From an uncultured Oscillospiraceae bacterium (GTDB lineage Bacteria; Bacillota; Clostridia; Oscillospirales; Oscillospiraceae): a DNA stretch of 13,388 nt. The notes under the pieces are model-generated. The model made no database searches. It saw nothing but the letters and a program-made list of their open reading frames with translations, and was not told where the DNA came from. Of this stretch, positions 1 through 11,641 are shown piece after piece. The position numbers and the translations under genes were made by a program. Position 1 is the first letter of the stretch; each line of letters opens with the position of its first letter. The stretch spans positions 1 to 13,388 of the forward strand of contig CANQKJ010000028.1 of assembly GCA_947624465.1 (NCBI GenBank), given 5' to 3'.

Positions 1-647
1 CTACAAAACTCGCTTTTGGGATTGATATTGTAATATATTTGCCCACAGTTTTTGCAGATTTTTAGTGTCTTCCGCGGGCTGCTGACCAATGCGCTGTATG
101 CGAAATGGAGGAACGCCTCCAGCGAGGAAAACTCCCAGGAAAACTGCGGGCGCGTCGCTCCTGTCATGTGGAAGCCAATCGATCCAGACAAAGCCAGAAG
201 ATCGGAGCCCTTTGGAAGCGGGAGAACCTCCGGTCTGCCTATGATGCTGAACCGCTGATACAGGCTTTTGAACACGTTGCGAAAGCGTTCCAATTCCTCG
301 CCATAGCCTTTGCTGTTTACCAAGCGGCTTGACGGCCTCAAATCGGGGTGCTGGACAGGGGCGGTGTCCTTATCCGCCCCAAGCCCCAGGAGGCCGTAAC
401 GGGCCGCAAAATCGGTGCAGGCGTAGTCTTTTGACGGGTCGTCTATGGTAATCAGACGCCCCAGTTCCAACGCATTTGCAACCAGCTCTCCAGGCATCTC
501 TGCGCAGTTATACCAAATCAACCTGGGCTGCTCAGAGTCGTCAAGATCCGGAACCAGATATTGCACGCCTCTATGTTTTTTAATTGTATAGCCCTGCCAC
601 AGAGGCCACATGATGCGCTGGCCTACTAAGACGTCATTCAATTCCAT
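1..647 (-). CDS. Hypothetical protein with a C-terminal zinc-ribbon motif, cut by the left edge
   Basis: The reading frame is open for 215 codons from the ATG at 647 to the window edge, so the C-terminus is missing. An AGGAGG site lies 7 bases before the ATG, which makes the start firm. The protein begins MELNDVLVGQRIMWPLW and has no signal peptide or membrane segment. Near the cut end it has CKNCG (about residues 199-203) and another Cys as the last complete codon, about 16 residues later. This spacing looks like the first part of a Cys4 zinc ribbon. The layout (mixed N-terminal region, then a C-terminal zinc ribbon) resembles DUF6076-type proteins common in Clostridia, but I cannot confirm the family. 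It lies 85 bp downstream of the sigma-like gene on the same strand and is probably cotranscribed with it as element cargo. Function unknown. Confidence 0.8.
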   Translation of the reverse strand, partial: MELNDVLVGQRIMWPLWQGYTIKKHRGVQYLVPDLDDSEQPRLIWYNCAEMPGELVANALELGRLITIDDPSKDYACTDFAARYGLLGLGADKDTAPVQHPDLRPSSRLVNSKGYGEELERFRNVFKSLYQRFSIIGRPEVLPLPKGSDLLALSGSIGFHMTGATRPQFSWEFSSLEAFLHFAYSALVSSPRKTLKICKNCGQIYYNINPKSEFC

Positions 648-732
648 CACAGTTCCTCCTGTGTAATCGCTGTAATCACTATACCATCTTTCAGCCGGAG
701 CCGCAAGAGCGGTTCTGGCTATTTTTGCATTT

Positions 733-1242
733 TCAGGGGTCTTTGCGCCCGGTCACCAACAGCCGGACCTTCTCAATTGCCCTCTTTCGGAGTTTGGTCA
801 CGTTTCGAACCGAGCATCCCAGTTCCTCCGCAATCTCTTTGGTGGAGACCTGGCATACGACGTTCTCCCAGAGCACCAGCCGCTGGAGGCCGCTCAGCTC
901 TTTCAGCGCCGCGCTGGTGGGATACTCAGCGACCAGTTGGTGGATGTCCTCCGGGCGTTGGGAGAAGATCACGTCGTCCCATTCCTCCCAGTGGCACAGT
1001 TTCCTCCAGTCTCCCGGCCTCTGAACTCTCAGCTCTTCCGGCATGGGCTCCCGCTCCATCACCGTGGGGTCCAGATCCGCCCGGTGTTCTTCATGTCTCC
1101 GCTCGTTGTTCCCGTCGTAGCGGTCCAACTCGGCCAGAACGCCGTCCCAGTTGCCGACGCCGGCCAGTTCTCGGAGCCTATGATCCAGTTCCGCCTCCCG
1201 CTTGTCCGCCTCATTGCCCCACTTGAAATTCTTTTCCGCCAT
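733..1242 (-). CDS. Sigma-70 region 4-like helix-turn-helix protein
   Basis: The product has 169 residues. Residues 1-105 are charged, rich in Glu, Arg and Trp, and not recognisable. Residues about 113-163 match the region 4 helix-turn-helix of sigma factors: LKELSGLQRLVLW, then STKEIAEELGCSVRNVTKLR, then a basic helix. Region 2, which binds the -10 element and core polymerase, is not visible, so this is unlikely to be a complete sigma factor. Similar short sigma-like proteins are common on conjugative and integrative elements of Clostridia, where they act as regulators. The start at 1242 is preceded by AGGGGTG at a rather long distance of 11 bases. It is the first gene of a leftward unit whose promoter lies at 1300-1328, opposite the excisionase-like gene. 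DNA binding is likely; the target is unknown. Confidence 0.8.
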   Translation of the reverse strand: MAEKNFKWGNEADKREAELDHRLRELAGVGNWDGVLAELDRYDGNNERRHEEHRADLDPTVMEREPMPEELRVQRPGDWRKLCHWEEWDDVIFSQRPEDIHQLVAEYPTSAALKELSGLQRLVLWENVVCQVSTKEIAEELGCSVRNVTKLRKRAIEKVRLLVTGRKDP

Positions 1243-1346: not shown

Positions 1347-1577
1347 ATGGGCAGAGAGGATAAAAATCTGACCCGATACCGGGCCATGTTCCGGGGCTAC
1401 CCAGACGCTCTGACCCCGGAACAGGTCCGGCAGATGCTGGGTGTGGGCCAGCGGACGGCCTACCGGCTGCTGCGAACGGGGGCTATTCCCAGCGTGCGGA
1501 TGGGCCGGATCTACCGGATTCCCAAGACGGCGGTCATCGACTATCTTTGCGCCGGGGAAAACGCAGAAAAGACTTGA
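1347..1577 (+). CDS. Excisionase-like helix-turn-helix protein
   Basis: This 76-residue protein is almost entirely one winged helix-turn-helix of the excisionase/MerR-like type (residues about 22-68): LTPEQVRQMLGVGQRTAYR forms the two helices, IPSVRMGRIYRIPK the wing with its basic residues, and TAVIDYL the last helix. Such proteins bend DNA at attachment sites and steer tyrosine integrases towards excision, and some also repress transcription. GGGAGG lies 10 bases before the ATG. It is 63 bp upstream of the integrase and reads in the same direction, the usual xis-int arrangement. Excisionase is the likeliest role; a purely transcriptional role is possible. Confidence 0.8.
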   Translation: MGREDKNLTRYRAMFRGYPDALTPEQVRQMLGVGQRTAYRLLRTGAIPSVRMGRIYRIPKTAVIDYLCAGENAEKT

Positions 1578-1640: not shown

Positions 1641-2891
1641 ATGAAAGGAGAGGTCACCGGCAGCTTGTTTGAGCGCCGGGGCAAGTTTACCGCCATCCTG
1701 AGCTACTACGACGAGGACGGCAAGCGGCGGCAGAAGTCCGTGGCGCTGGGCATCCCGGTGAAGGGCGGAAAGCGTAAGGCGATGGCCAGGCTGGAGGAAT
1801 TGAAGCGGGAGTTCGCCCTCAAAGAGCCCGCCAAGCCCAAGGAGGAGTCTCCGCTGTTCGCGGACTATTTGAAGGATTGGCTGAAGATCGCCTCCACCAC
1901 CATCGAGCGGACCACAAAACAGAGTTATGAGCAGCTGTTCAAGGCCCGGCTGGACCCGTTTTTTCGTTCCCGGAAGCTGAAACTGTGCGACGTAGAGCCC
2001 AAGCACATCCGGGAACTGCACCAGTCCATCCTGGACGACGGCTGCAACGCCAACACCGTCATCCACTACCACGCCCTGGTGCGGAAGGCCCTTCAGTACG
2101 CCGTGGAGAATGACATGATCCCCAGCAACCCCGCGGACCGGGTGGCACGGCCTCGCAAGGGCAAGTATCTGGCCGGCTACTATACCAAGGACGAATTGGC
2201 GGCGCTGTTCGAGGCCACCAAGGACGACTCTATGGCAGTGGTCATCCAGTTGGCGGCCTATTACGGTCTGCGCCGGAGCGAGGTGCTGGGCATCCGCTGG
2301 AGCGCCGTGGATTTCCAGCGGGGGACCGTGTCCATCAACCACAAGGTCACCGAACTCACCGAGAACGGCGAACACCGGCTCTACACCGAGGACAAGCTCA
2401 AAACCAAGTCCAGTTTCCGCACCCTGCCCCTGTTTCCGGCCACCCGAAAGCTGCTGGAAGAACAGAAGGAGAAGCAGGCGCGGTACCGGGCCATGTTTGG
2501 CAAGTCCTATTGCCGGGAGTACATAGACTACGTCTGCACCGACGAGTTGGGGCAGCTATTCCAGCCAAACTACGTCACCAACCATTTCCGGGTCCTGCTG
2601 GAACAGCACGGGCTGCGGCACATTCGATTCCACGACCTCAGGCATAGCTGCGCCACCCTGCTGCTCAGCCAGAACGTCCCCATGAAGCAAATACAGGATT
2701 GGCTGGGTCACTCCACCTTCTCCACCACTGCCGACATCTATTCTCACTTGGATTTCAGTTCCAAGCAGGAGTCCGCCGCCGCCATCGCCGCGGCCTTCGC
2801 CCCGCCGGAGCCCGAACAGGCAGAAGAACAGTTGGGGGAAGTAGAGGAGCAGAACGAGGCCCCCGGCTTCAGCATGACCATGGGGGTGTGA
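1641..2891 (+). CDS. Tyrosine site-specific integrase
   Basis: This 416-residue recombinase has the full family layout. Residues 1-60 form an arm-type DNA-binding domain that starts GSLFERRGKFTAILSYYD. Residues about 70-165 form the SAM-like core-binding domain. Residues about 180-370 form the catalytic domain, with Arg211 (GLRRSE), Lys256 (KTKSS), His331 and Arg334 (HDLRH), His357 (LGHS) and the nucleophile Tyr367 (DIYSHLD). All are intact, so the enzyme is probably active. The last 40 residues are Ala-, Pro- and Glu-rich. AGGGAGG lies 8 bases before the ATG. The length is normal for integrases of Bacillota elements. It would cut and join the element's attachment site with the chromosome; the tRNA-Ser region to the right (4506-4520) is the likely target. 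The next gene begins 1 bp after its stop. Confidence 0.95.
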   Translation: MKGEVTGSLFERRGKFTAILSYYDEDGKRRQKSVALGIPVKGGKRKAMARLEELKREFALKEPAKPKEESPLFADYLKDWLKIASTTIERTTKQSYEQLFKARLDPFFRSRKLKLCDVEPKHIRELHQSILDDGCNANTVIHYHALVRKALQYAVENDMIPSNPADRVARPRKGKYLAGYYTKDELAALFEATKDDSMAVVIQLAAYYGLRRSEVLGIRWSAVDFQRGTVSINHKVTELTENGEHRLYTEDKLKTKSSFRTLPLFPATRKLLEEQKEKQARYRAMFGKSYCREYIDYVCTDELGQLFQPNYVTNHFRVLLEQHGLRHIRFHDLRHSCATLLLSQNVPMKQIQDWLGHSTFSTTADIYSHLDFSSKQESAAAIAAAFAPPEPEQAEEQLGEVEEQNEAPGFSMTMGV

Positions 2892-2892
2892 G

Positions 2893-3453
2893 GTGAACTA
2901 CCAAAAGCTGCGGGAGCAGTATCCCGCCGTCATCACCATGGATCAGTTCTACCGTATCTGCCATATCAGCAAACGCAAGGCCCGGTGGCTGTTGGAGCAC
3001 GGGGTGGTGCCCTGCCGGGACTCAGGGAAAAAGACCCGGCGATTCAAGATCCGGCTGGCGGATGTGATTGCTTTCCTGGAGCGTCGGGACGCCGGAGATC
3101 CTGCGGTGGCTGCGCCCAAGGGAGCGTTCTCCAGTGGGGCCCACGTCCGCAAACCGGGACGGGTTCCCCTCACCGCTTCGGAACGAGAGAAACTGCGGGC
3201 ATCCCTCCTGGCCGCGTGGGAGAGCTGGCCGGACGCACTGACGGTGCGGCAGGCGGCGGAACTGTGCGGGTGCTCGGAGAACACGATGCACCGGTGGGCA
3301 CGGAAGGGCGCTGTGACAAGCGTGGCTTACCGTGGCGCCTATCTGGTGTCGAAGGAGGGGCTGGCTGGGTGGATGGCTATCAGACGGGGCGGCGCTCTCA
3401 GGCAGGAGCCATGGGAGCCCAGGCAAATTGATGATCCCATCCGTTTCGTATAG
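2893..3453 (+). CDS. Protein with two excisionase-like helix-turn-helix domains
   Basis: The start is a GTG one base after the integrase stop, with only a G-rich stretch as ribosome binding site, so translation is probably coupled to the integrase. The 186 residues hold two similar units. Residues about 14-64 read ITMDQFYRICHISKRKARWL, followed by a basic wing and ADVIAFLERR. Residues about 115-163 read ALTVRQAAELCGCSENTMHRW, then a wing and SKEGLAGWM. A 50-residue linker, basic at its start, joins them. Both units resemble the excisionase-type fold of the 76-residue protein upstream. A double-domain protein could bind two sites or bridge DNA at the attachment site. Its role as recombination directionality factor or regulator is inference. 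Confidence 0.8.
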   Translation: MNYQKLREQYPAVITMDQFYRICHISKRKARWLLEHGVVPCRDSGKKTRRFKIRLADVIAFLERRDAGDPAVAAPKGAFSSGAHVRKPGRVPLTASEREKLRASLLAAWESWPDALTVRQAAELCGCSENTMHRWARKGAVTSVAYRGAYLVSKEGLAGWMAIRRGGALRQEPWEPRQIDDPIRFV

Positions 3454-3486
3454 CATCGTCAAGAGCCGATAAAAATCGTACATTCA

Positions 3487-3538
3487 CTGACAGGACTGTT
3501 CGGAGCGGGGAGCGCATCGCTCGGAAGAGTCCTGTCGG
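3487..3538. repeat. Nested inverted repeat between the double HTH gene and the 115-residue gene
   Basis: GACAGGACT (3489-3497) pairs with AGTCCTGTC (3528-3536), extended by C-G and a T-G wobble on the outside. Inside lies a second hairpin, GAGCG-CAT-CGCTC (3510-3522). No T-run follows, so this is not a standard terminator. It could be a leader RNA structure, a processing site or a protein-binding cruciform. Confidence 0.55.
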
Positions 3539-3587
3539 ACATTTGCTGTTTTCTGCCGGTCAAGAGCCGGGAGAAATATCCGAAAAG

Positions 3588-3605
3588 TGCCCCTGTCGAG
3601 GGGCA
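3588..3605. repeat. Hairpin just upstream of the 115-residue gene
   Basis: TGCCCCT-GTCG-AGGGGCA is a perfect 7-bp stem with a 4-base loop. It ends 10 bases before the ribosome binding site of the next gene. Nearly the same stem (GCCCCT/AGGGGC) is found again at 4012-4026. Confidence 0.55.
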
Positions 3606-3626
3606 GAGGCGTGGAAAGGAGTTTTT

Positions 3627-3974
3627 ATGATCACCGGGCTGACAAAGCGGGAAAAGACCACGGAGATCTGGTTCGATGAGAAAGACCCCAGAATCCACAT
3701 CCGCACCCACAACACCGATCTGAAAAAGCGGCTTGCCGCCTATGCGCGGCGAAACCCCGGAGTATGCCGCCAGACCGACGAAGACCCGGAGACGGGATGT
3801 TTGGAATTTGACATTGAAAAAGGGCGGCTTTCCTTCCGGCTGACCGCTCCTTACAGCGAACAGCGGCGGGAGGCGGCAAGGAGGGCGGGGAAGGATCACG
3901 CTGCCAATTTGTCACATCATGTCCGCAAGGATGAGATGCAGGCCATTTTAGAATCAAAACCACTAGTAAACTAG
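3627..3974 (+). CDS. Small conserved-looking protein of unknown function
   Basis: The ATG at 3627 is preserved by a GAAAGGAG site 6 bases upstream, so I prefer it to the longer frame that opens at 3543. The 115 residues start MITGLTKREKTTEIWFDEKD. The sequence is soluble and charged: a probable short beta part (EIWFDEK, IHIRTHN), a helix (TDLKKRLAAYARRN), then FDIEKGRLSFRLTAPYSEQRREAARRA. There is no signal peptide or membrane segment. I have an impression that small proteins of this kind recur on mobile elements of gut Clostridia, sometimes named molecular chaperone without support; I do not assign a function. The last 26 residues (after RAGK) look like an added tail, and the stop codon lies inside a perfect palindrome (3957-3980). 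Confidence 0.75.
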   Translation: MITGLTKREKTTEIWFDEKDPRIHIRTHNTDLKKRLAAYARRNPGVCRQTDEDPETGCLEFDIEKGRLSFRLTAPYSEQRREAARRAGKDHAANLSHHVRKDEMQAILESKPLVN

Positions 3975-3980
3975 TGGTTT
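3957..3980. repeat. Palindrome containing the stop codon of the 115-residue gene
   Basis: AAACCACTAG and CTAGTGGTTT are perfect 10-bp arms around TAAA. The TAG stop at 3972-3974 lies in the right arm. No T-run follows. It is the first of the closely spaced hairpins that fill the stretch up to 4230. Confidence 0.7.
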
Positions 3981-3985
3981 GCTCA

Positions 3986-4195
3986 GACCCCAGAGGGGTC
4001 AGTACTTGCTGGCCCCTGTAAGGGGCATCGAATATTATCATCGCATCGCTTGCCCCGCAACCTGTAAACAGGTTATTTGTACTGACAGCCGTGTTGATTT
4101 GATGATATTCTTTCCCATTGTCAAAATCCCCTTGGCCTTTCGTGATGCAGTCGCCAAACCGTCACGTTTGGCCTTGGGGATTCTATTTGCCAAGG
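3986..4195 (+). other. Gene-free stretch packed with hairpins, possible structured RNA
   Basis: This 311-base gap between the last element gene and the tRNA (3975-4286) holds no credible gene. Perfect short stems follow each other: GACCCC/GGGGTC (3986-4000), GCCCCT/AGGGGC (4012-4026) and AACCTG/CAGGTT (4059-4074). The last two are enclosed by GTCAGTAC/GTACTGAC (3998-4005 with 4079-4086). A second set has AATCCCC/GGGGATT (4125-4131 with 4176-4182) around GCCAAAC/GTTTGGC (4153-4172). A competing pair, CCTTGGC/GCCAAGG (4130-4136 with 4189-4195), cannot form together with it. A terminator follows at once. The pattern suggests a folded transcript of about 270 bases, but stems in DNA could also be protein sites. 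Confidence 0.45.
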
Positions 4196-4205
4196 CTTTT
4201 TATTC

Positions 4206-4230
4206 ACCCCTGGTAGAACCAGGGGTTTTG
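4206..4230 (+). terminator. Intrinsic terminator of the rightward element transcript
   Basis: ACCCCTGGT-AGA-ACCAGGGGT is a perfect 9-bp stem with a 3-base loop, followed by TTTTGTT. It would end transcription coming from the integrase side or from the hairpin-rich stretch, before it runs against the tRNA gene. Confidence 0.8.
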
Positions 4231-4245
4231 TTAAGCTAAAGCAAC

Positions 4246-4283
4246 AAAAAACCGCAAATGCCGGCCCTTAGGCCGGCATTTGC
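4246..4283 (-). terminator. Intrinsic terminator of the tRNA-Ser transcript
   Basis: GCAAATGCCGGCC (4254-4266) and GGCCGGCATTTGC (4271-4283) form a perfect 13-bp stem with a CTTA loop. Read leftward, it is followed by GG and six Ts. It starts only 3 bases after the encoded CCA end of the tRNA, so it fits as the tRNA's terminator. Confidence 0.85.
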
Positions 4284-4286
4284 TTA

Positions 4287-4378
4287 TGGCGGAGATGGAG
4301 AGATTCGAACTCTCGCGCGTTTTTTAGACGCCTACCGCATTTCGAGTGCGGACCCTTCAACCACTTGGGTACATCTCC
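4287..4378 (-). tRNA. tRNA-Ser (anticodon CGA), intact, CCA encoded
   Basis: The leftward sequence folds into a complete class II tRNA. The acceptor stem is GGAGATG/CATCTCC (4378-4372 with 4297-4291). The D arm is CCC/GGG with loop AAGTGGTTGAA. The anticodon arm is CCGCA/TGCGG with loop CTCGAAA, giving anticodon CGA, which reads UCG. A long variable arm follows, as expected for serine, then the T arm GAGAG-TTCGAAT-CTCTC. The discriminator base is G and the CCA end is encoded (4289-4287). No promoter lies right before it; the nearest is at 4584-4612, about 200 bp upstream, so it is probably cut out of a longer transcript by RNase P. Confidence 0.97.
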
Positions 4379-4403
4379 ATGATGAAATTGTCGCTGGGAT
4401 TTC

Positions 4404-4422
4404 TGTTAGCATTTTGTTAGCA
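4404..4422. repeat. Tandem TGTTAGCA repeats, candidate integrase arm sites
   Basis: TGTTAGCA occurs at 4404-4411 and again at 4415-4422, an 11-bp period (one helical turn). Short direct repeats 50-150 bp from the crossover are typical of arm-type sites bound by the N-terminal domain of tyrosine integrases. These lie about 90 bp from the proposed crossover at 4508-4520. The link to this integrase is inference. Confidence 0.4.
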
Positions 4423-4452
4423 CAGCCCGAAGAAACGCCCTCCCGAACAGCC

Positions 4453-4483
4453 CGCAAACGCCCTGTTTATGCGGGTTTGCGGC
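4453..4483. repeat. Imperfect-loop inverted repeat between the two tRNA sequences
   Basis: CCGCAAAC and GTTTGCGG form 8-bp arms around about 15 bases, with an alternative CCCGCA/TGCGGG pairing inside. No good T-run follows on either strand. It lies in the transcribed spacer upstream of the intact tRNA; the role is unknown. Confidence 0.4.
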
Positions 4484-4505
4484 GTTTTATGGGACACTGT
4501 CGCGG

Positions 4506-4550
4506 CATGATTTCGAGTCAGGGCCGTTATAACCACTTCGATACCGCTGC
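4506..4550 (-). pseudogene. 5' half of a tRNA-Ser (CGA), broken at the anticodon arm
   Basis: Read leftward from 4550 the sequence follows a serine tRNA exactly up to the anticodon arm. It has a 7-base acceptor strand GCAGCGG, TA at positions 8-9, a D arm TCG/CGG with loop AAGTGGTTATAA, one base, and the anticodon arm CCTGA-CTCGAAA-TCATG (4 of 5 pairs, anticodon CGA). After 4506 nothing resembles a variable arm, T arm or 3' acceptor strand, and CCGCTGC, needed to pair with the 5' end, is not found on the minus strand downstream. A strong promoter sits just upstream, so this was a real gene. The body differs from the intact tRNA-Ser in the acceptor and D arms, so it is not a simple duplication. 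Confidence 0.75.
4508..4520. other. Proposed attachment core in the tRNA anticodon loop
   Basis: TGA-TTTCGAG-TCA has inverted 3-bp flanks around 7 bp that are exactly the anticodon loop of the broken tRNA-Ser. Tyrosine integrases commonly cross over in a 7-bp anticodon loop flanked by its symmetrical stem. The tRNA sequence is intact to the right of this site and lost to the left, as expected for an element junction. The core ATTTCGAGT also occurs in the intact tRNA at 4339-4347. Confidence 0.45.
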
Positions 4551-4583
4551 GTATTCGATTTTCCGCCCCGCGGGGGCCTCATT

Positions 4584-4612
4584 AGGATATCCCATTTGGA
4601 CGGGGATGTCAA
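4584..4612 (-). promoter_or_regulatory. tRNA promoter
   Basis: On the minus strand TTGACA (4612-4607) and TATCCT (4589-4584) are separated by 17 bp. The start would be near 4577, about 27 bases before the broken tRNA-Ser and about 200 bases before the intact one. It is the only good promoter seen for the intact tRNA. Confidence 0.75.
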
Positions 4613-4658
4613 GAGCGGAGCGCCCGCCGGACGTCCCATCCGCCGGGCGGCGCCGCGG

Positions 4659-5510
4659 TCACTTCAGATAGGCCAGCACCTCGTCGGTGCGGGCGCGGGC
4701 GTGGTCCAGCCCCTGCTGCCACAGGGCGCGGATCTTGTCCGTGTCCGTCTCCACCCGGGAAAAGCCCTTGGTGCTGTCCGGGCAGAACAAAAGCACATCG
4801 CCCGCTTTCTCGGCGGCGAACAGCTCCTCCCGGCACCGGTTGTAATCCTCCGCCCGGCGCTTCATCACGTCCACGAATTTCGGATACCTGCGGTAATATA
4901 CTTTGATCGCCGGCAGCAGGCTGTCCGGCTTGCGGAGGTAGCTCCGCTCCCGGGTGAGGACCACCACCACCCGGTCGCAGCCCTTCTCCAGCGCCCGCCT
5001 CCAGGGGATGCCGTCCGCCGCGCCGCCGTCCAGGCACTTCACGCCCTGATACTCGATGACGGGGAACAGCACCGGCATGGCGCAGGTGGCCTTCATCAGG
5101 GTGAATTTGGGGTCGTATTCGGCGGCGGGGAAATACCGGGGAACGCCCGCCTCGATGTCGGTGACCGCCGCCTCCGCCTCCCCGGGCCAGCGCGCCAGGG
5201 CGGCGAAGTCATAGGGCACCAGCTCGGCGGGGATGCGCTCGAAGGAAAACTCCAGCCCGAAATAGCTGCGGTTGCGGGGGTCGATGAGATTGCGCTTGCC
5301 CATATACCGTTTGTCGTTGGCAAAGCGGGTGAGGATCTCCAGGTTGCGGCCGTACTGCCGGGAGAGGAAGCTCATCCCGTAGGCGATGCCGGCGGAGACG
5401 CCCACCACGTAGTCGAAGTCCAGTCCGGCCTCCAAAAACCCGTCCTGCACGCCGCTGGAATAGATGGTGCGCAGCGCGCCGCCCTCCAGCACCAGTCCTG
5501 TTTTCATCAT
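4659..5510 (-). CDS. Patatin-like phospholipase
   Basis: The 283-residue product is a patatin-family lipid acyl hydrolase. It has the glycine-rich oxyanion motif EGGALR near the N-terminus (residues 9-14), the nucleophile elbow GVSAG with Ser39 (37-41), and the catalytic Asp in DGGAADGIP (Asp161). The Ser-Asp dyad is complete. No signal peptide or membrane segment is seen, so it should be cytosolic, resembling the small bacterial patatins of the YjjU type. Substrate is unknown; phospholipid or acylglycerol is usual for the family. The start is the first of two consecutive ATGs after AAGGGGGG; the second (5507) is equally possible. A longer leftward frame runs on upstream, but promoter and ribosome site favour this start. 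It diverges from glgB and is otherwise unrelated to glycogen. Confidence 0.92.
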   Translation of the reverse strand: MMKTGLVLEGGALRTIYSSGVQDGFLEAGLDFDYVVGVSAGIAYGMSFLSRQYGRNLEILTRFANDKRYMGKRNLIDPRNRSYFGLEFSFERIPAELVPYDFAALARWPGEAEAAVTDIEAGVPRYFPAAEYDPKFTLMKATCAMPVLFPVIEYQGVKCLDGGAADGIPWRRALEKGCDRVVVVLTRERSYLRKPDSLLPAIKVYYRRYPKFVDVMKRRAEDYNRCREELFAAEKAGDVLLFCPDSTKGFSRVETDTDKIRALWQQGLDHARARTDEVLAYLK

Positions 5511-5531
5511 GGTGCCCCCTTTTCTCACAGC

Positions 5532-5559
5532 ATTATACACCTTTTTCCCGAATTGACAA
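5532..5559 (-). promoter_or_regulatory. Promoter of the patatin-like gene
   Basis: On the minus strand TTGTCA (5559-5554) and TATAAT (5537-5532) are 16 bp apart. The predicted start is about 15 bases before the ATG, giving a very short leader with just the ribosome binding site. Confidence 0.75.
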
Positions 5560-5653
5560 GTCCGGCGTTTTTCCCGAAAATACGCCCCTTCGCCATATAG
5601 TTCCAACCGCCGGGAAAGGTATGATTTTGGCGCTCTTTTGCCCGCTCTCCGCC

Positions 5654-5682
5654 TTGACTTTGTACATCCGCTAAGGTATAAT
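5654..5682 (+). promoter_or_regulatory. Promoter of the glgBCDA operon
   Basis: TTGACT (5654-5659) and TATAAT (5677-5682) are 17 bp apart. The start should be near 5689, with a leader of about 40 bases before the glgB ATG. No clear operator or terminator is seen between promoter and gene. Confidence 0.85.
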
Positions 5683-5729
5683 ATGGTTACGCTATTATGC
5701 CTCCCACGGGGGAGGGATAGGAGGTACGT

Positions 5730-7871
5730 ATGAAAAAGACCGATGAATTCTACGAGGCGCTGAGCCGGTTCAGCCAGGGGACAAGCACCGACGCCTACAA
5801 GATCATGGGCTCCCACAAGGAGACCAGAGACGGGCAGGAGGGCTTCGCTTTCCGGGTATGGGCCCCCCACGCCAGGAGCGTCCGGGTGGCCGGCTCCTTC
5901 AACGGCTGGGCCACCGACGGCCCCGTGATGGAGCCGCTGGACGGCGGCGTGTGGGAGGGGTTCGTACCCGGTCTGCACGACTTCGACGACTACAAGTATT
6001 ACATCGAGCGGCCCGACGGGTCCTTCGTCTTCCGGGGCGACCCCTACGCCTGCCACTGGGCCACCCGGCCCGGCAACTCCAGCAAGGTGTACGATCTGCA
6101 GGGCTTTCCCTGGACCGACGGGGCCTATATGAAGGCCCGCTCCAAAAAGAAGCTGCTGAACAGCCCGGTGAACATCTACGAGATGCACCTGGGCTCCTGG
6201 CGGATGCATGACGACGGCAACCCCTACAACTACGTGGACCTGGCCCGGCAGGTGGCGGAGTATGTCACCGAAATGGGCTACACCCATGTGGAGCTGCTCC
6301 CCGTGAGCGAGTACCCCTACGACCCCTCCTGGGGCTACCAGGTCACCGGGTACTACGCCCCCACCTCCCGGTACGGCACCCCCAAGGACTTCATGAAGTT
6401 CGTGGACATCCTCCACAACGCCGGCATCGGCGTCATCATCGACTGGGTGCCCGCCCACTTCCCCAGGGACGAGCAGGGCCTGTTCGAGTACGACGGGGAC
6501 TGTTGCTACGAGCCCGCCGACCCCGTCATGCGGGACCACCCCGATTGGGGCACCCGGGTGTTCGATTACAGCCGGTACGAGGTCCGCTCCTTCCTGATCT
6601 CCAACGCCATGTACTGGCTGGAGGAATACCACGTGGACGGCATCCGCGTGGACGCGGTGGCCTCCATGCTCTACCTGGACTACGGCCGCCGGGACCGGGA
6701 GTGGCACCCCAATAAGGACGGCGGCAACATCAATCTGGACGCCGTCCAGTTCCTGCGGGACGTGAACGCCGCCGCCCTGAGCCGCGACCCCAACGTGCTG
6801 ATGATCGCCGAGGAGTCCACCGCCTTCCCCATGGTCACCAAGCCGGGGTACGACGGGGGCCTGGGCTTCAACTTCAAGTGGAACATGGGCTGGATGCACG
6901 ACATGATCAGCTATATGTCCACCGACCCCCTGTTCCGCAAGGGGATCCACAACAATATCACCTTCTCCCTGACCTACGCCTTCTCGGAGAACTTCATCCT
7001 GCCCCTCTCCCACGACGAGGTGGTCCACGGCAAATGCTCCCTCATCAACAAGATGCCCGGCGAGTACGACGACAAGTTCCAAAACCTGCGCACCTTCTAC
7101 GGCTATATGATGACCCACCCCGGCAAAAAGCTGCTGTTCATGGGCAGCGAATTCGGCCAGTTCATCGAGTGGGACGAGAAACGGCCTCTGGACTGGTTCC
7201 TGCTGGACTACGACAGGCACCGCCAGCTTCTGGAGTACGTGAAGGACCTGAACCGCTTTTACCTGGACCACCCCGCCCTGTGGGCCAACGACACCGACTG
7301 GCAGGGCTTCCAGTGGATCGCCTGCGACGACGCCGCCCAGAGCGTCATCGCCTTCCGCCGCATCGACCCCAAGGGCAAGGAGGTCATCGTGGTGTGCAAC
7401 TTCTGCCCGGTGGAGCGGACCGGCTACGTCATCGGCGCGCCCAAGGCGGGCACCTATGTGCCGGTGCTGTCCAGCGACGACGAAAAGTACGGCGGCCGCG
7501 GCACGCCGCTGGCCCCCGTCTCCGCCAAAAAGACGCCTCAGCACGGCCTGCCTTATTCCATCGAGCTGACCCTGCCCGCCATGTCCACCGTGTTCTATGA
7601 GCGGAAGGTCATCCGGCGCGAGAAGGCCGGGGACGAGGCGGAGGCCCCCAAGGCCGAGCCCGCCAAGCCCGCCGCCAGGCGGGGCCGGAAGCCCAAGGCG
7701 GAGGCCGCCCCCGTTGAGGAACCCAAGCCCGCCGGGGCGAAAAAGACCGCATCCAAGGCAAAAAAGGCCGAGGCCCCCAAGGCCAAGGCCGTGAAAGCAG
7801 AGAAAAAACCCAGCGCCCGCAAAACCGCCGCGAGACCCAAGACCACCAAATCCAAAGCGACCAAATCATAA
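5730..7871 (+). CDS. glgB: 1,4-alpha-glucan branching enzyme with a basic C-terminal tail
   Basis: GlgB cuts alpha-1,4 chains and rejoins them as alpha-1,6 branches on glycogen. The 713 residues hold a CBM48 module (about 35-120), the GH13 barrel (about 145-500) and a C-terminal beta domain ending near 625. The GH13 motifs are all present: DWVPAHF (238-244), GIRVDAV with nucleophile Asp308, IAEEST with acid/base Glu361, and HDEVVHGK with Asp429. It lacks the extra N-terminal module of the E. coli enzyme. Residues 631-713 are an unusual extension made largely of Lys, Ala and Pro, with an AT-hook-like RRGRKPK at 650-656. The start has AGGAGG 6-7 bases upstream. It is the first gene of the operon; glgC begins 16 bp after its stop. 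Confidence 0.97.
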
Positions 7872-7887
7872 GAGGGGGACGATAACT

Positions 7888-10214: not shown

Positions 10215-11641
10215 AGATCCTGTTCGCCTCCGGTGAATGCGCCCCCTTCATCAAGACCGGCGGTCTGGGGGACGTGGCCGCGGCTCTGCCCAAGGCCCTC
10301 AGCGAGGCGCCCGGCTCTGAGATCGCGGTATTCATTCCCTACTACAAATCCCTGAAGGACGACCCGGACCTCCAGGTGGAGCTGGTGGCGGAGTTCACCG
10401 TCCCCCTGTCCTGGCGCAATGTGTACGCCGGCGTGTTCCGCCTGGTGAGCCGCAAAAAGAAGCTCCAGTACTATTTCATCGACAACGAGTACTATTTCTA
10501 CCGGGACGGCTCCATCTACGGCCACATGGACGACGGGGAGCGGTACGCCTACTTCTCCAAGGCCATCCTGGAGTCCCTGCGGTACCTGAACTGGTATCCC
10601 GACGTGATCCACTGCAACGACTGGCAGACCGCCCTGATCCCCGTGTTCCTCAACGCCGTGTACAGGGGCGTCGAGGAGTACCGGAGCATCCACACGGTGT
10701 ACACCATCCACAACATCGAGTACCAGGGCTGGGCCGGCCACGACTTCCTGGGCGAGGTCATGGGCCTGGGCGAGGACTGGCGCGGCGTGGTGGACATGAG
10801 CGGCGCGGTCAACTTCATGAAGGCCGCCATCGTCACCGCGGACCGGGTCACCACCGTGTCCCGCACCTACGCCTTTGAGATCCAGAACAGCTACTTCGCC
10901 CACGGGCTGGACGCCATCCTCCGGGAGAACAGCTGGAAGCTGGCCGGCGTGGTCAACGGCATCGACACCGAGGAGTGGAACGCCGCCTCCGACCCGCTGA
11001 TCTACGCCAACTTCACCCCCGACACCCTGGAGAAAAAGGCGGAGAACAAGCGCTTCCTCCAGGAGCGGCTGGGCCTTGCCGTCCGGGACGACGTGCCCCT
11101 GGTCATCATGATCACCCGGCTGGCCGGCCACAAGGGCGTGGACCTGATCCAGGCCGTCATGGACGATCTGATGTGGGACGAGATGCAGCTGGTGGTCATC
11201 GGCACCGGCGAGGCCCAGTACGAGGATATGTTCCGGGGCTACGCCTACGCCTTCCCCCACAAGATGTCGGCCAACATCGTGTTCGACAACACCCTGGCCC
11301 ACCAGACCTACGCCGGCGGCGACCTGGTGCTCATGCCCTCCAAGCAGGAGCCCTGCGGCCTGACCCAGCTCATCGCCATGCGGTACGGCACGGTGCCCAT
11401 CGTCCGGGAGACCGGCGGCCTGTTCGACACGGTGCCCGCCTACGACCCCGAGACCGGCGAGGGCCGGGGCTTCACCTTCAAGACCTACAACGCCCACGAT
11501 ATGCTGGACGCCATCCGCCGGGGCTGCGCCCTGTTCCACGACAAGGAGGCCTGGGCCGCCCTGCAGAAGAACGATATGCGGGTGGACAGCTCCTGGAAGG
11601 CCTCTGTGGAGGACTACTGGGATATTTACCGCTCCTTCTGA
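10211..11641 (+). CDS. glgA: Glycogen synthase (ADP-glucose type)
   Basis: GlgA adds glucose from ADP-glucose to the non-reducing end of alpha-1,4-glucan. The 476 residues form the two Rossmann-like domains of GT5. Near the N-terminus is FIKTGGLGDV with Lys15 of the ADP-glucose-binding KTGGL motif. In the C-terminal domain are TRLAGHKG (Arg303, Lys308), PSKQEPCGLTQL with catalytic Glu380 (376-387) and RETGGLFDTV (399-408). The length is normal for the bacterial enzyme. The ATG overlaps the glgD stop by four bases and has AAAGGAG at good distance inside the end of glgD, so the two are translationally coupled. A frame extended to 10133 lacks family similarity and is rejected. Confidence 0.97.
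   Translation: MKILFASGECAPFIKTGGLGDVAAALPKALSEAPGSEIAVFIPYYKSLKDDPDLQVELVAEFTVPLSWRNVYAGVFRLVSRKKKLQYYFIDNEYYFYRDGSIYGHMDDGERYAYFSKAILESLRYLNWYPDVIHCNDWQTALIPVFLNAVYRGVEEYRSIHTVYTIHNIEYQGWAGHDFLGEVMGLGEDWRGVVDMSGAVNFMKAAIVTADRVTTVSRTYAFEIQNSYFAHGLDAILRENSWKLAGVVNGIDTEEWNAASDPLIYANFTPDTLEKKAENKRFLQERLGLAVRDDVPLVIMITRLAGHKGVDLIQAVMDDLMWDEMQLVVIGTGEAQYEDMFRGYAYAFPHKMSANIVFDNTLAHQTYAGGDLVLMPSKQEPCGLTQLIAMRYGTVPIVRETGGLFDTVPAYDPETGEGRGFTFKTYNAHDMLDAIRRGCALFHDKEAWAALQKNDMRVDSSWKASVEDYWDIYRSF

Follow-up and report, generated by a model that had tools for sequence, protein, structure and literature searches.

We confirmed that, in a stretch of DNA from a gut-type bacterium, an integrative element interrupts a chromosomal tRNA-Ser(CGA) at its anticodon loop; the stretch includes the left end of this element. 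This stretch, hereafter the window, is the entire contig C28 (13,388 bases) of a draft genome (G000; 278 contigs, 78% complete), and the closest named relatives of its integrase belong to uncultured Oscillospiraceae bacteria (99% identity). Very probably, elements of this kind break tRNA-Ser(CGA), supply a replacement behind the host promoter, and are in turn re-targeted serially. In this model, a tyrosine integrase would insert the element into the anticodon loop of tRNA-Ser(CGA), which serves as a core of 8–10 bp. Neither half of the gene would be rebuilt; a whole tRNA-Ser(CGA) would be carried in the same orientation, ~130 bp inside the element end, and transcription from the host promoter would cross first the dead 5′ half and then the spacer before reaching the element tRNA and its terminator. 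As only the anticodon loop must match, the stems of the target may differ, and as the supplied tRNA keeps the same anticodon loop, it becomes the next target. Later elements would break the supplied tRNA and bring another, as nested or tandem insertions, and loss of the older element bodies would leave a stack of 5′ halves between the promoter and the newest tRNA.

The junction in the window

Read on the minus strand, the junction runs from a promoter through the host 5′ half, the core CTCGAAAT(CA), and 129 bp of element DNA to a foreign, full tRNA-Ser(CGA) and a terminator. The features of the window are as follows.

4659..5510 (-), host patatin-like gene flanking the insertion site, a neighbor in relatives too
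4584..4612 (-), putative captured host promoter, TTGACA-17-TATCCT; a similar promoter precedes the intact tRNA in relatives
4508..4550 (-), 5′ half of the chromosomal tRNA-Ser(CGA), from acceptor strand GCAGCGG through the core
4508..4517 (-), attL core CTCGAAAT(CA), the anticodon loop, common to the other end (G000:C18:11649)
4379..4507 (-), element spacer from the core to the replacement tRNA, 129 bp; best promoter score 3.4, shuffled mean 4.7
4404-4411 and 4415-4422 (-), two TGCTAACA direct repeats, likely arm-type integrase sites
4287..4378 (-), complete element-borne tRNA-Ser(CGA) with encoded CCA, called by ARAGORN; compensatory changes among eight genes of its type
4254..4283 (-), terminator-like hairpin of the tRNA unit, 13-pair stem and T run
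2893..3453 (+), element HTH_17 protein
1641..2891 (+), tyrosine integrase (PF00589, 1.9e-24), convergent with the tRNA and pointing to its 3′ end
1347..1577 (+), small HTH_17 protein (PF12728) ahead of the integrase, putatively excisionase-like
733..1242 (-), element Sigma-70 region 4-like protein

The host half starts at 4550 (GCAGCGG...), and its anticodon loop, CTCGAAA, lies at 4517-4511 on the minus strand. The loop is followed by T and then by CA, with which the match to the host gene stops at 4508. The half tRNA and the complete tRNA-Ser(CGA) described in the original prediction are both real: ARAGORN called a single complete tRNA-Ser(CGA), at 4287-4378(-), which scored 57.8 bits against the Rfam tRNA model (E 1.5e-10), and the spacer between the two measures 129 bp. 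The promoter TTGACA-17-TATCCT is likewise present upstream of the half, with one correction, as its -10 box lies 33 bp from the half and not 27. Within 3800-5200 there are three promoter-like sites, of which it is one, where shuffled sequence would give 0.8.

The motif TGCTAACA was found twice at the window end, where 0.13 copies are expected. Further copies lie near the other end of the element, at positions 11476, 11487, and 11600 of locus L059 (on contig C18), which holds four in total against 0.30 expected. Repeats 11 bp apart inside both junctions fit what is expected of integrase arm sites.

To the right of the promoter, along with the patatin-like gene, lie what we take by eye to be glycogen genes of the host. 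At the left of the window (3-1242, minus strand), an ORF of unrecognized family, cut by the contig end, and the sigma-70 region 4-like gene occupy the strand opposite to the integrase, and counterparts of these genes are kept in a relative, G030.

The other end of the element and empty sites

The two ends of the window element lie on separate contigs, C28 and C18, of the 78% complete draft. A 3′ half ending in CCGCTGC-N-CCA had been predicted for the far end, and such a half is present in the same genome at G000:C18:11649, with the ending CCGCTGC-G-CCA. Across C18:11649-11702, element DNA runs to TTTTAAGGG and is followed by CTCGAAAT and then by the host 3′ half. No complete tRNA was found in this interval, and a pattern search recovered no other CGA 3′ part from the same genome. 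The window half and the C18 half pair at 12 of 12 stem positions (seven in the acceptor, five in the anticodon stem). As the predicted 3′ half occurs in the same genome and pairs throughout, the window half is not there by chance. The link from C18 to C28 is made by homology with G030 and not by assembly: G030 has both element ends on one contig, 14.5 kb from the full tRNA to the 3′ half, and its right end, nearly the same as that of C18, is adjoined by an AAA ATPase gene of the same kind.

Joining the window flanks gives a complete tRNA-Ser(CGA) that closely matches the gene at three loci without the element (L067, L069, and L070), where the patatin-like neighbor is 69-77% identical and the promoter is similar. 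These are empty-site relatives with one uninterrupted tRNA-Ser(CGA), as had been anticipated, and with them the prediction survived both of the tests posed for it. At the element junctions, no fragment restoring the tRNA gene in attP was found, neither half is rebuilt, and no tRNA was called, which upholds the view that the element leaves its target gene unrestored and carries a full isoacceptor. An assembly artifact is unlikely, as the same layout occurs in a contig of a Papillibacter isolate, in a 2.69-Mb contig (G143), and in independent fecal scaffolds.

Stacked halves and nested insertions in relatives

Five relatives (G029, G030, G004, G007, and G008) show a promoter, one to three 5′ halves, and a full element tRNA, in steps of 165-171 bp; the full tRNA of G008 is cut by a contig end. 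The most stacked locus, L193, has four 5′ halves and a full tRNA. Such serial stacking, which lay outside the original prediction, is the larger result. The first half is of the host type in G030, G004, and G007; G029 and G008 have lost the host half and kept the promoter. Elsewhere, the host halves have changed in sequence, with the core altered to CCCGAAAT in G004 and the acceptor of the 3′ half altered in G030 (CCGCTTC). Old halves decay, and the last tRNA is intact wherever it is fully sequenced. The route by which older element bodies were lost is one that we infer.

Nesting is seen in the isolate Papillibacter cinnamivorans DSM 12816, in which a 348-kb contig carries halves at 60258 and 60450 and a full tRNA at 60639. 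The second half (60450) has a 3′ mate ~52 kb away, at 112875, with which it pairs at 12/12, and a further 3′ half, at 208948, pairs at 9/12 with the first. The 3′ end of a second, convergent family integrase is found 85 bp beyond the core of the half at 112875. There the integrase of the earlier element would be expected had a later element split its tRNA, and we read the arrangement as a nested insertion. A family integrase, cut by the sequence end, also lies 235 bp past the core of an orphan 3′ half in G117. In G173 (L285, G173:C6, near contig position 4692), a second copy stands in tandem; it has a full tRNA and an integrase of its own, and the core before it is changed to TTCGAAAT.

Some loci carry related arrangements. 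G020 (L071, L068) shows a different element at a site of this kind, with a 5′ half and a tRNA that runs into a contig end; its orphan 3′ half, on a separate contig, pairs at 12/12. Stacks with units of 78-91 bp were found at L178, L180, L183, L185, L214, and L228, with one such step each in L041 and L045; at most of these, no family integrase adjoins the full tRNA in the sequence examined. The G075 locus (L185) has a 7.7-kb element whose integrase lies beside the 3′ half, at the other end.

Frequency, integrase association, and matching halves

The pattern AAGTGGTN{13,15}CTCGAAA matched 120 of 197 genomes of the order. Stacks, taken as at least two strict matches within 400 bp on one strand, occurred in at least 25 of the 197, from at least 11 family codes (counted by eye). 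In a sample of the class, 108 of 245 genomes matched and 13 were stacked (by eye), two of the 13 being common to the order sample. A tRNA-Ser(TGA) pattern matched 57 of the 197 genomes and none of them twice; it is a weak control, since it matched fewer genomes than the CGA pattern (57 versus 120) and a few of its matches are not tRNA-like.

Sixty loci were retrieved, 24 picked as stacks and 36 others. By a looser test, 31 of the 60 are stacks, including seven from the 36 others; the seven do not include L211, whose half is decayed. For the integrase counts, a locus had to contain a full tRNA followed by 1.5 kb or more of sequence. A family integrase lies downstream at 11 of 17 stack loci versus 2 of 22 half-free loci (Fisher p = 0.0004), figures that are not population rates because the loci were partly picked for stacking. 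One of the two half-free loci with an integrase is L211, whose decayed half reads CTAGAAA. All 13 integrases are convergent with the tRNA. At 6 of the 17 stack loci, no family integrase was found in the downstream sequence examined; two of these six genomes (G143 and G075) carry it farther in or at the other end. For G044, the whole interval between the stack and the 3′ half yielded no family integrase, and a Pfam scan of ten ORFs near six integrase-less stack loci detected no recombinase.

Orphan 3′ halves tend to match 5′ halves of their own genome. Across 21 genomes with 5′ halves, 18 of 23 orphan 3′ halves pair at 11 or more of 12 positions with an own-genome 5′ half. Drawing an equal number of foreign halves instead brings 5.8 of them to this level on average and 13 at most. 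The mean best pairing is 10.9 with own versus 9.2 with foreign halves, and none of 2,000 resamples reached the observed mean. This comparison includes loci L166, L167, and L273-L276, and for G008, G020, G051, and G193 a tRNA truncated where the contig stops was counted as the last half. A tRNA-Ser(TGA) match in L168 was excluded. The five 3′ halves without a good mate are the outer one of Papillibacter (9/12), one of G232 (9/12), and those of G044 (6/12), G007 (7/12), and G008 (7/12); the host 5′ half of G008 is deleted. Three more orphan 3′ halves (G109, G233, and MT840019), outside the 23, have no 5′ half in the sequence examined. Mates on one contig and strand lie between 7.7 kb (G075) and 67 kb (G105) from the full tRNA.

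Two single cases belong here. G109, taken as stack-free (L227), has a second, orphan tRNA-Ser(CGA) 3′ half on another contig (L275, G109:C24). In G044, a single contig of 3.0 Mb, a 3′ half (L279, G044:C1 1369595) matches none of the 5′ halves in the stack, which lies 42 kb away.

The half and the full gene adjoin on one strand, as tandem tRNA genes would if one had been shortened by ordinary deletion beside a coincidental integrase. The halves examined all stop at the anticodon loop, however, and we reject the explanation on the stem-matched orphan 3′ halves at element ends, the nested integrase, the empty sites, and the integrase association; we give it almost no chance of being correct. Extending the model of serial replacement beyond single loci, it seems reasonably likely that, across Clostridia, elements with a loop integrase and a full tRNA with the same loop, placed behind a captured host promoter, have repeatedly taken over tRNA-Ser(CGA), each arrival ending and replacing the tRNA before it, and that decay of the original halves ties the host to a tRNA borne by an element.

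Probable promoter capture

Over 30 hand-chosen stacks, scored with a matrix built from general knowledge of sigma-70 sites, the best promoter score averages 10.1 over the 110 bp leading to the first half, 6.0 in the last spacer, and 6.4 in shuffled spacers. The upstream sequence outscores the spacer in 21 of the 30, and the spacer equals or exceeds it in 9. In the window, the scores are 12.8 upstream versus 3.4 in the spacer. Since spacers score on average no better than shuffles, transcription of the replacement tRNA probably starts from the captured host promoter. The original prediction had proposed transcription from this promoter, and the promoter scan supports it as a reading of the sequence.

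The carried tRNA might otherwise use its own promoter in the spacer, with the host promoter irrelevant, as in phage Fionnbharth of the closest known system, for which an own promoter was measured according to the accessible text of PMC10865867. Fair candidates do occur in the spacers of L172 (13.4, a good candidate), L177 (10.9), and L192 (10.3), and exceptions such as L172 may have promoters of their own. The spacer averages and the weak spacer of the window speak against this as the general explanation, as does the retention of the promoter in G029 and G008 despite the deleted host half, and we consider it unlikely.

Probable function of the replacement tRNA and possible dependence of the host

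All 160 stem cells pair in eight tRNA genes of the window type, and four pairs change on both sides, a number reached by 3 of 500 shuffles. The cloverleaf was drawn by hand, and the eight genes include that of L099, where the presence of an element is unchecked. Such covariation is expected of a folded, working tRNA, and from it we infer that the replacement functions.

A different role would be that of a landing site or decoy, with the carried tRNA serving mainly as a self-provided target or as a spare for tRNA cleaved in defense, and tRNA-Ser(TGA) covering UCG. A tRNA-Ser(TGA) match is present in 10 of 10 genomes examined (complete by ARAGORN in nine, and cut by a contig end in the genome of the window), and UCG is rare in the four flanking host genes, at 3 of 108 serine codons. 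The element also carries PARIS, a system that cuts tRNA. Against this role stand the covarying stem pairs, as well as the decay of some older halves beside an intact last tRNA, and on balance we judge it improbable as the main one. A working replacement for the broken gene remains our preferred reading.

How far the host depends on that replacement is a separate matter. As tRNA-Ser(TGA) is present and might also read UCG, a strict need for tRNA-Ser(CGA) is uncertain, and with UCG rare as well, strict essentiality is unsupported. A fitness cost of tRNA loss is plausible, as is dependence of the host on the element. Excision would restore the host tRNA while both old halves are intact. In several relatives, the old host halves are mutated or deleted, so simple excision there could not restore the gene. 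The earlier suggestion that the host would come to depend on the element is thus favored by these decayed halves and weakened by the second tRNA-Ser and the rarity of UCG.

Cargo and element type

On C18, the element end encodes a Mob_Pre relaxase, a type III restriction-modification pair, a T5orf172 protein, and an AAA_14/DUF4143 ATPase. Within this pair, at L059 (G000:C18) 1991-7873, a fused PARIS AriAB gene (PDLC02982, E 7.8e-172) separates the methylase gene from the restriction gene. The G030 version of the element carries a ResIII-type gene, a methylase, and an FRG protein. By these domain matches, the cargo recognized so far appears to be defense-like. The element genes scanned comprise the integrase, HTH, sigma-like, relaxase, type III restriction-modification, PARIS, T5orf172, and AAA genes and unrecognized ORFs; no phage structural gene was found among those scanned at both ends, the middle of the element being unassembled in G000. 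Given the integrase and the Mob_Pre relaxase, it is probably an integrative mobilizable element, as judged across a broken assembly.

Relation to known systems

The closest known system is the tRNA-dependent lysogeny of actinobacteriophages (Guerrero-Bustamante and Hatfull 2024, PMC10865867). In the accessible text of that paper, actinophages that do not rebuild the tRNA have cores of 8-17 bp (its Table 2), and Lactobacillus johnsonii prophage Lj965 is given as a likely case outside Actinobacteria. Shared with the present elements are a tyrosine integrase, an attB in a host tRNA gene, a short core, an unrebuilt tRNA, and a carried tRNA of the same isotype. The actinobacterial systems so described are temperate phages, whereas the present one is a probable mobilizable element of Clostridia with a relaxase and restriction and PARIS cargo. 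Fionnbharth has its own measured promoter, whereas the tRNA here lies 129 bp inside the junction, behind what is probably a captured host promoter. In addition, the carried tRNA here keeps the loop of the target and is serially re-hit, and serial stacks are not described in the accessible text of PMC10865867.

Other integrating elements share parts of the layout. Islander-type islands, in the portions of Hudson, Lau, and Williams (PMC4383910) available to us, likewise use a tyrosine integrase, with crossover in the anticodon loop in many, and leave a tRNA fragment at the far end; they restore the tRNA gene with a fragment carried in attP, whereas no fragment restores the gene here. Tycheposons also have a tyrosine recombinase and a tRNA gene at the element border, and the available portions of PMC10872708 make no mention of an anticodon-loop break, isoacceptor replacement, or stacking. 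Integrative and mobilizable elements likewise combine an integrase with a relaxase (here Mob_Pre), and the tRNA replacement sets the present elements apart from them. A full-text search, which returned mostly titles and abstract openings and few subscription papers, found no published account of serial tRNA-half stacks left by elements that carry a whole tRNA.

These findings broaden the range of integrating elements that replace a tRNA, from actinophages to elements of Clostridia that are probably mobilizable and carry defense genes. They suggest a ratchet, in which each replacement is the next target and a translation gene is passed from element to element, and why such elements would need the anticodon loop only and not the stems of the host. 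Stacked halves explain leftover tRNA halves in the genomes studied here and give the order of insertion at one site. Searches that pair an intact tRNA with its own fragment would be expected to miss or mis-pair such loci, a blind spot for island finders that assume a restored gene. The dependence of a host on a mobile element for a tRNA also becomes testable.

Viral relatives and a possible free form

Among viral contigs, a single-sequence scan for relatives found none, and an alignment scan found four distant ones. Integrase matches occurred in 1,955 phage records, all below 60% identity, and four of the five examined have tRNA-Ser(CGA) parts of this kind. On the minus strand of human fecal scaffold MT836946.1 (L293), at ~4320-4700, a right end is followed by CTCGAAATC, an element spacer, and a full tRNA-Ser(CGA), after which comes an integrase. 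This arrangement is that predicted for attP and could represent an excised circle or a tandem junction. By eye, the right end of the scaffold is nearly the same as that of G120 (L269).
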